Source: Streptomyces sp. Q6 (lineage in GTDB: Bacteria; Actinomycetota; Actinomycetes; Streptomycetales; Streptomycetaceae). From it: DNA of 64,000 bases. The stretch's first letter is position 1, and each line of letters starts with the position of its first letter. Below, in pieces: positions 38,727-40,768 of this stretch. The notes beneath the pieces are model-generated. The model was not told the origin of the DNA and did no database searches. It worked only from the letters and a program-made list of their open reading frames with translations. The stretch covers positions 248,001 to 312,000 of the forward strand of contig NZ_CP146023.1 in the NCBI RefSeq assembly GCF_036967205.1. The letters are read 5' to 3'. The position numbers and the translations under genes are program-made.

Positions 38727-39330
38727 AACCGTGCACTCCTTTAGATAAGTTTGAACCTGTACATGTTACCCGCAGAGGGTTCTCCGTAGGTGTATGTCTG
38801 TGCCGGACGGCGTATCGGGCCATCTGTCAGGTGTGTTCCTCACCATAGGCGCAAGTGTGCTCAGGAGAACAGGGTTGGAGCGGTGCTGACACCCTTCCAG
38901 TCAACACGTGTGTGTGGCTGTGCAGGGAAACGTTGGCGCGTGTGCGGATGATAGGGTTTCTCCTTTTCGCAACTGTGTCCCGGCTGGGCGCGGGAGCGCG
39001 GCGCCTTACAGAACCGGTTGGCTCATGTCCCGGTCCGATCCGTTCCGCAGCTTCATGAGGGAGCACATATCGACCGCCTGGTTCGCGTGGAGGAGGCGGT
39101 GCGGGTACCCGCCTGCTGGGTCAACTGGCCAAGGACCGTCCTTCGAGCGCCAAGGACGCTGCCCCCGACCCTTGTCAACGACGCCGGCCGACAGGCCGGG
39201 CAGCTCCGGCAGTCGAGGAGTGACGACACCGCGTCGATCAGCGGGAAGACGACAAGTAGCGTGACGGCCACTCCCGGTGCATGGTGAGGCAGCGGAAGCT
39301 GGAGGCAGCGACCGGGGCACCCTGGCCCCG
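38727..39330. other. intergenic region, 604 bp, upstream of the IS
   Basis: No intact gene. It contains ACACGTGT at 38904-38911. On the minus strand near 39200-39290 a hydrophobic stretch L-L-V-V-F-P-L-I-D-A-V could be the remnant of a small membrane protein, but it has no usable start and is not listed as a gene. Confidence 0.4.
38904..38911. promoter_or_regulatory. ACACGTGT palindrome
   Basis: Exact intergenic copy, 178 bp upstream of the minus-strand gene at 38726. Confidence 0.35.
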
Positions 39331-39334
39331 CTAG

Positions 39335-39359
39335 AGCGTGTCTCTTTGGTGGGCTGACC
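39335..39359 (+). repeat. left terminal inverted repeat
   Basis: Left end of the IS; pairs with 40575-40599. Core TGTCTCTTTG at 39339-39348. Confidence 0.6.
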
Positions 39360-39371
39360 AGTTGATCGGAC

Positions 39372-40237
39372 GTGTCCATCCGGTTAGTGATCACTGATGC
39401 GATGTGGACCCGGATCAAGCCGCTGATGCCGGCCGATCCGGTCCGCGGTCGGCGATGGGCCGACCACCGCCGCACCCTTGAGGCCATTGCGTGGAAGTAC
39501 CGCACCTGTTCGCCCTGGCGGGACCTGCCAGAGGAGCTTGGCTCCTTCCAGACGGCCCACAAACGTCTCATCAGGTGGGCCGTCGACGGCACCTGGGCAC
39601 GGATCCTTGCCGCCGTCCTGGCCACCGCCGACGCTGATGACGACGTGGAATGGACTGTCTCGGTGGACTCCACCATCTGCCGGGCCCATCAGCACGCGGC
39701 TGGGGCTGTGAAAAGGGGGCTGCGCGGCGGTCCGAACCCGACGATCATGCACTCGGACGTTCTCGTGGCGGCCTGAGTACGAAAGTACATCTGGCCAGCG
39801 ACAACCGGGCACGGCCGTTGGCCCTCTACGTCACCGCTGGTCAGGCGGGTGATGCTCCGGCATTCGAGGCCGTCATGGCCAGGATCCGCGTCCCGCGACG
39901 CGGACTCGGTAGGCCCCGGACTCGCCCGGAGACCGTCCTCGCGGACCGCGCCTATTCTTCCCGCGCGATCCGCAGCCATCTCCGACGGCGAGGCATTCGC
40001 GCCGTCATCCCGCAGCCTGCCGACCAGGTCGGACACCGTCTGCGGAGAGGGCGAGCTGGAGGCCGACCGCCAGGTTTCGATGCGGAGGCATACAAGCAGC
40101 GCAACACCGTCGAACGGTGCATTAGCCGATTGAAGCAATGGCGCGGTCTGGCAATGCGCACGGACAAGCTTGCCCTGGCCTACGAGGCTGCTGTGCACTT
40201 GGCGGCCATCCTGATCTGGTCCCGCTCGACGCAGTGA
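39372..40237 (+). CDS. IS5-family transposase, made by -1 frameshift
   Basis: The first frame (39372-39776, GTG start) carries the N-terminal domain and the first catalytic Asp in V-S-V-D-S-T. The second frame, running to 40237, carries A-D-R-A-Y-S-S with the second Asp and N-T-V-E-R-C-I-S-R-L with the Glu, completing a DDE nuclease. The frames overlap, and AAAAGGGGG at 39711-39719 is a natural slippage site for a -1 shift: the sequence after it continues the family pattern (S-E-P-D-D-H-A-L-G-R-S-R-G-G). The first frame contains a TTA codon at residue 5. It probably moves the element by cut and paste. Confidence 0.85.
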
Positions 40238-40238
40238 T

Positions 40239-40547
40239 TCAGAGCAACTCGTGCACGACCAGTCGCGACTGCTGCCCCGAAAAGGCGCTTCGCAGGGCTC
40301 GGGCCTCACGGTTGCGGGCGGCGAAGACTCCTCGCTTGTCCACATGCACGACCAGGACGTCGTAGCTGTCGATGACCTCGGAGATGCCCCGCGTCTGGAT
40401 GGTGTCCCGCCAGGCTTCCGTGTTCCGACCGAACCACTCCGGCAGTCCGCAAGGCTCAGCCAGGGCGTCCCAAAAGTCATCGAGCGTTTCGATGGGCCTC
40501 CCCCGCAGGTCAACTACCAGCTCCGACTCAATCCTCTTGGCCACCAC
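40239..40547 (-). CDS. barstar-family (ribonuclease inhibitor) protein inside the IS
   Basis: 102 residues from GTG 40547 (a second GTG follows at once). D-L-R-G-R-P-I-E-T-L-D-D-F-W, then G-L-P-E-W-F-G-R-N-T-E-A-W-R-D matches the barstar core; the acidic loop that blocks barnase-type RNases is conserved in position. Its stop is 1 bp from the transposase stop, tail to tail. Its start falls within the IS ends. No ribonuclease gene is next to it. It could protect against a toxin elsewhere, for example a contact-delivered RNase. The ribosome site is weak, so the start is uncertain. Confidence 0.7.
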   Translation of the reverse strand: MVAKRIESELVVDLRGRPIETLDDFWDALAEPCGLPEWFGRNTEAWRDTIQTRGISEVIDSYDVLVVHVDKRGVFAARNREARALRSAFSGQQSRLVVHELL

Positions 40548-40574
40548 GACAGAGTAATTGGCCCGCTTCCAAGG

Positions 40575-40599
40575 CGTCAGGGCTTCAAAGAGACAGCGC
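40575..40599 (-). repeat. right terminal inverted repeat
   Basis: Right end of the IS, inverted partner of 39335-39359. The core CAAAGAGACA is at 40586-40595. Confidence 0.6.
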
Positions 40600-40768
40600 C
40601 TAGCGGAGCACCCGCGGACAGCGGCACCGGTCGCGCTCGATCCGGCCTCGAGCGCGGGATTACCGCGTCCAACGGCGTGGTGAGCATCCTCGCCGCGATT
40701 GTCGTGGGCATCGCGGGGGCGGGCGATGTCGCGCCGGTGCCAATGCGGCGGCGTGGACGATTCAGGGC

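Follow-up and report, generated by a model that had tools for sequence, protein, structure and literature searches.

The window analyzed here, a stretch of 64,000 nucleotides from the genome of Streptomyces sp. Q6, contains at 39335-40599 a 1265-bp element with CTAG on either side, in which an IS5-type transposase is followed, on the opposite strand, by a gene of the barstar family (Table 1).

Table 1. Features of the element and its flanks (positions in the window)
Feature	Position	Strand	Basis or remark
Left CTAG (target site)	39331..39334	.	CTAG likewise around copy 2 and most relatives
Left terminal inverted repeat	39335..39358	+	Sequence and repeat finder
Transposase frame A	39372..39776	+	DUF4096 = PF13340; N-terminal part of NF033580
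Transposase frame B	39650..40237 (stop 40235-40237)	+	PF01609 DDE domain; C-terminal part of NF033580
Probable -1 frameshift site AAAAGGGGGC	39711..39720	+	Motif in 15 of the 17 elements printed
Barstar-family cargo gene, 101-102 aa	40239..40547	-	PF01337; barstar fold; dN/dS
Promoter-like sequence CTGACG-18 bp-TACTCT	40551..40580	-	6 nt before the GTG at 40544
Right terminal inverted repeat	40576..40599	-	Sequence and repeat finder
Right CTAG (target site)	40600..40603	.	Seen in the sequence

The two ends share a core, TGTCTCTTTG, in inverted order. The left end (39331-39358) reads CTAG AGCG TGTCTCTTTG GTGGG CTGAC, and the right end (40576-40603), on the minus strand, reads CTAG GCGC TGTCTCTTTG AAGCC CTGAC. 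A repeat finder pairs 39325-39358 with 40576-40609 at 74% complementarity, the longest inverted pair there. A first-pass annotation, made from the letters of the window alone, had proposed ends with a shared core, CTGAC and flanking CTAG, all of which are indeed present; CTGAC need not, however, belong to the inverted repeat, since the same letters occupy the -35-like place of the promoter-like sequence of the barstar gene. The left CTAG is replaced by TTAG in some relatives, such as L050 and L058 (L numbers being our locus handles).

The transposase is spread over two overlapping frames. Both score above the cut-off of the NF033580 model ("IS5 family transposase"), and PF13340 and PF01609 match as well, which, together with the terminal inverted repeats, places the element in the IS5 family. 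Since frame B is the -1 frame relative to frame A in 14 of the 17 elements printed, and AAAAGGGGGC or AAAAAGGGGC occurs near element position 376 in 15 of them, the two frames are probably joined by programmed -1 frameshifting. The median dN/dS of frame B is 0.14 over 66 transposases, a set that includes fragments; several relatives have no intact frame B. Seven other places in the same genome (G000, L007 and L009-L014) show ~65% DNA identity over the same 493 bases and are another multicopy IS5-type element of this strain.

As for the cargo gene, it runs on the minus strand from a GTG at 40547 or 40544 to a stop codon at 40239-40241. Its product matches PF01337 (E 3.8e-8, 33.6 bits against a cut-off of 23.4), in agreement with the earlier assignment of an opposite-strand barstar-family gene between transposase and right end. 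A structure model built from 16 homologues (pLDDT 86.6) displays a barstar fold, its 29 best Foldseek matches in the PDB being barstars, at moderate TM values of ~0.5-0.6. At the sequence level, the resemblance to solved barstars is weak (E 0.003 with a profile). The Asp aligned with the binding Asp of barstar is invariant. In 14 of the 15 barstar elements printed, an ATG or GTG is preceded at 6 nt by a TA-box (TACTCT, TAGTCT or TAGGCT); given how near this promoter-like box is to the start, transcription from within the element may yield a leaderless barstar message. The barstar of L072/L110 is broken into two frames.

The central claim of the first-pass annotation, an IS with a barstar gene as internal cargo, is borne out by further copies that have the same limits, and the multiple copies of the 1265-bp unit for which it suggested looking do exist. 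A second full copy in the same genome, inverted and starting 318 bases past the end of the window, differs from the first at 2 of 1273 bases; since it is likewise bounded by CTAG at either end, with the same limits and other flanks, the ends go beyond chance. The other contig holds a third, truncated copy (93%). Copies of 1270 bp, 2 bases different and at different sites, occur on plasmids of Streptomyces sp. WA1-19 and 604F, where they are annotated with the same barstar protein accession. A search of named genomes with the barstar protein returned 30 loci, 6 of which contain the whole unit with both ends: S. coeruleorubidus (L050), S. resistomycificus (L051), S. toyocaensis (L056), Streptomyces sp. 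BK340 (L058), Isolate_45 (L059) and S. neyagawaensis (L068). Four S. coelicoflavus loci are cut off within the unit where their contigs end, a behavior expected of a multicopy repeat. That copies with the same limits occupy different sites indicates that the whole unit transposes and that the barstar moves along with it. With a passenger gene inside its ends and one transposase, the element is a transporter IS (tIS).

The same copies bear on a simpler account, in which a plain IS landed by a barstar gene that was already there and the apparent right end beyond that gene is a chance resemblance. Plain elements do exist in the family (19 of 53, see below), as do standalone barstar relatives; however, a transposase-barstar unit that recurs with the same limits at different sites, between unrelated flanks, rules this account out, and we give it practically no credence. 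The two full copies in Streptomyces sp. Q6, mutually inverted and ~23.7 kb apart, flank the remainder of the window (40604-64000) and ~310 bases beyond, and might, in principle, mobilize the intervening DNA.

Empty sites, another check suggested at the outset, were found for a sister element and not for the window copy. When the joined flanks of the window copy were compared with 295 genomes (one per species, two candidates per genome), none of the matches listed, own genome aside, crossed the junction; in a few genomes, short stretches of the two flanks are matched, but apart from each other. No plasmid record covered 80% of the joined flanks of L198, L196 or L204. The site of L202, a sister element with an SMI1/KNR4 gene on a plasmid of Streptomyces sp. 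A144, can be read uninterrupted in four other plasmids, with CTAG once in three of them and CCAG in one; the left flank of the occupied site reads CTA and the right one CTAG. CTAG stands on both sides of both copies in Streptomyces sp. Q6, a one-CTAG empty site comes from L202 only, and duplications of CTAG and of TA look the same here. Elements L024, L197, L199 and L219 adjoin IS701-family copies (the last three by annotation), and the flank beside CTAG is TACTGCAA in L024 and L197, so that the two kinds of IS may share CTAG targets.

While the first-pass annotation recognized the barstar, it missed that the slot in which the gene sits, between the transposase stop and the right end, is occupied by about 17 cargo types, of which barstar is one. 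The unit is matched at E 1e-20 or better in 244 of 392 genomes of the same genus (two candidates scored per genome), and a plain element is matched at E 1e-100 in 96 of 294 genomes of the order, only one of the 96 lying outside the genus. Plasmid records matching the element number 249, of which 203 are from Streptomyces, and 20 of the 249 were opened at the IS. From the loci of the genome searches and 60 further stretches, with one rule for both ends, we counted 53 complete elements (L083 and L084 among them being a repeat within one genome): 19 plain ones, of 905-931 bp save for one that is internally deleted, and 34 with cargo, of 1205-1830 bp. Elements that lack two clear ends, among them L093, L037 and L045, are outside this count.

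The 66 elements of the tree described below carry 17 cargo labels, taken from the longest or annotated frame, or none. A family could be assigned to barstar, DUF6221, GNAT, LysE, MerR-GyrI and L7/L12 C-terminal domain cargo. The SMI1/KNR4 (SUKH-like) cargo, so named by RefSeq, scores 25.3 and 24.6 bits, just below the Pfam cut-off of 25.4, and the Imm1-like cargo scores 18 bits, clearly below its cut-off of 22.4, with a structure model too poor for use (pLDDT 65.5). The remaining labels have no significant family, and the coding status of at least three cargo types (L042, L043 and L205) is doubtful. DUF6221, which is not known to have a role in immunity, is the second commonest cargo. Compared across these elements, the one-gene slot of this IS lineage proves polymorphic. 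At L119 (G001:C475), an SMI1/KNR4 gene lies directly behind the transposase; it was dropped as cargo since no outer end was found, and is perhaps an intermediate or broken cargo form. In plasmid pSM17A (L214), a cargo-bearing element is immediately preceded, at 1-1002, by a gene whose annotation names a polymorphic toxin-type HINT protein.

A transposase tree was built from 66 hand-selected rows, comprising 34 cargo and 16 plain elements of the 53 and 16 elements from plasmids. Left out were L084 (the repeat of L083), L091 and L160 (both internally deleted) and, from the plasmids, L197 and L201 (near-identical to L196 and L200), L212 (no right end found) and L219. The tree has one clade of 47 rows, every one with cargo, and another that holds all 17 plain rows together with one barstar (L056) and one MerR element (L142). 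Elements that end directly after the transposase, which the first-pass annotation had named as a sign against its reading, do occur (19 of the 53 complete elements); the plain rows fall in a sister clade, and do not affect copies with a right end beyond the barstar. Cargo labels need 24 changes on this tree, against a mean of 44.5 when shuffled, with at least 4 for barstar alone, which indicates that cargo is inherited, yet often exchanged. In an earlier 70-row tree that included incomplete elements, 29 label changes were needed, and L093, L045 and L037, with plain-type or decayed right ends, stood among the cargo bearers.

How a plain IS may acquire cargo is suggested by L056. Its transposase part is 92.6% identical to that of the plain element L090 and 76.8% to that of the window element, and its cargo part is 90.8% identical to that of the latter. 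Behind the transposase stop, a plain right end survives in decayed form (15 of 18 bases) with CTAG, and is followed by the last bases of a window-type transposase gene, a stop and then the barstar. L056 thus has the appearance of a plain element joined to the rear part of a window-type cargo element; since its frame A has an early stop, it may no longer move by itself. An inner end of at least 13 of 18 bases, a score reached by 0 of 2791 background windows, occurs in 3 of 49 rows (L035 and L056 with 15/18, L044 with 13/18) and in 1 of 15 others (L203, 13/18). L108 and L119 score 12/18, which 0.6% of the background reaches. The window element, at 9/18, has no relict. The idea that cargo forms in general can be told by a relict inner end was rejected, since such an end is present in a few lineages only, the window's not among them. 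Our script's rule assigns the outer right ends of 5 cargo elements out of 34 (L024, L030, L032, L035 and L039) to the left-end type, which would fit a far IS copy that was sometimes inverted.

Judging from the sequences of the copies, the transposase acts on the two outer ends and inserts at CTAG, with the barstar carried along. We infer that a gene becomes cargo when it lies between two IS ends of which the inner one is skipped and then lost. The starting state for the gain or swap of cargo would be an element beside a gene that is followed by the end of another copy. The transposase would then skip its own right end and use the farther one; the skipped inner end would decay afterwards, leaving relicts in a few lineages.

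What the cargo does was approached through selection and gene neighborhoods. IS-borne barstars have a median dN/dS of 0.21 (14 copies, 90 pairs), which points to purifying selection, and the values for other cargo are 0.26 (5 Imm1-like genes) and 0.22 (7 DUF6221 genes), all these pairwise values including time spent outside the IS. Selection of this order in the three largest cargo groups, and the conserved promoter-like sequence, argue against the cargo being a neutral hitchhiker, caught by accident and of no use to host or element. Such a reading would suit the diversity of the cargo types, the several that have no known family and the frames that are broken or doubtful, but on balance we hold it to be distinctly unlikely.

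Against a rough baseline of 13 Streptomyces genomes with 19 barstar genes (3 IS-borne genes of Streptomyces sp. Q6 not counted), 58 SMI1/KNR4 genes and 0 Imm1 genes, the chance that 2 of 17 cargo types are barstar or SUKH is about 8e-5 to 2e-3, if genes are taken to occur once every 1.1 kb and small ones are given a factor of 1 to 5. Imm1 was left uncounted, its cargo match being weaker than the baseline limit. As cargo types are not independent draws, this amounts to no more than a hint of a bias.

According to PMC3482391, Imm-barstar acts specifically against barnase-like toxins. Coordinates place a PF00545 RNase gene close to a barstar gene in 12 of 21 genomes. The cargo barstar has two relatives that adjoin a PF00545 RNase, that of L074 found at E 3.3e-14 and that of L075 (59% identical) by tblastn. 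Among 13 loci with neighbors listed, 12 have no RNase neighbor, and tblastn of the loci gave no more than L074 and L075. We consider that the cargo barstar probably neutralizes RNases of the barnase/RNase Sa type, and would protect a new host from the outset. An alternative role, for instance against a different nuclease or on a host factor, would agree with the weak similarity to solved barstars and with the scarcity of RNase neighbors among the listed near relatives, most of which have none; the barstars that make up the best Foldseek matches, the RNase genes beside the L074 and L075 relatives and the invariant Asp speak against it, and make it somewhat unlikely.

Within the element, the reading frames are those of the transposase, the barstar and antisense frames only. 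The addiction-like trait envisaged in the first-pass annotation finds no support here, since there is no toxin gene between the ends, and a toxin-antitoxin module was rejected because no further gene lies there. A host could also be made dependent on the element by a toxin encoded elsewhere, such as an orphan RNase: of the two PF00545 genes of the host, one (C1:1369945-1370214) has a barstar neighbor, and the other (C1:6903574-6903837) has no barstar match beside it. However, the element holds no toxin, sister elements carry unrelated cargo and orphan RNase genes also occur in sampled genomes that have no barstar of this element (e.g., G009), and dependence of this kind is very improbable.

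Taken together, we consider it likely that the element is an IS5-family transporter IS with a barstar in a polymorphic slot, the cargo of which would be gained or swapped by end-skipping and would probably confer RNase immunity. This reading is favored by the copies with identical limits, the empty site of L202, the 34 cargo and 19 plain elements, the 24 label changes, the structure of L056, the dN/dS values, the barstar fold and the RNase neighbors. It is weakened by the lack of an empty site for the window copy, the small number of relict ends, the early stop of L056, the broken frames, the few RNase neighbors, the weak to moderate similarity to barstars and the commonness of DUF6221. More tentatively, and at less than even odds, one Streptomyces IS lineage may have become a minimal gene-capture system, cassette-like and free of an integrase, the slot of which would be refilled by nested insertion at CTAG and end-skipping, and which would preferentially keep single-gene protective functions (toxin immunity, acetylation, export). 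Immunity genes that have no adjoining toxin are common, and their route of travel is often unclear; the lineage looks like a minimal vehicle that moves one gene at a time, and an IS of 1.2-1.6 kb with one immunity-like gene, the sisters of which carry others, makes such a vehicle concrete and testable. The family also illustrates how a plain IS may turn cargo carrier, with the old right end decaying and a new one beyond the gene taking over.

Several known systems invite comparison. Like other IS5-family IS (NF033580), the element has the transposase model, short inverted ends and a CTAG target, the cargo gene between transposase and right end being its own feature; the name IS1647-like comes from one plasmid annotation. 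As in a composite transposon, the gene is bounded by two IS ends, and such a transposon is the likely ancestor of the cargo forms. The element itself is not one, since a single transposase lies between its ends instead of two flanking IS copies, and the far copy would be reduced to a terminal repeat. RNase-barstar gene pairs are common in Streptomyces, and the cargo shares PF01337 and the barstar fold with the barstars (Imm-barstar) that accompany barnase-like RNases; in contrast to these pairs, no RNase gene adjoins it and it sits inside an IS. Integron gene cassettes, too, are exchangeable single genes in a mobile frame, but the present element has no integrase or attC, and exchange would use nested insertion and end-skipping. 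Transporter IS are a known class that spans several IS families, and those described in PMC9330008, PMC7986276 and PMC10132070 resemble the present element in having a single transposase and an additional gene within a pair of ends. The examples given there are single IS with one passenger each, whereas in the present lineage many different genes occupy a common slot. Searches of open-access PMC text (including PMC3937824), a scope outside which ISfinder and most subscription journals lie, listed no report recognized as describing barstar or exchangeable cargo in this IS. Within the open-access literature, the exchangeable slot and relict ends look like a new form of tIS.
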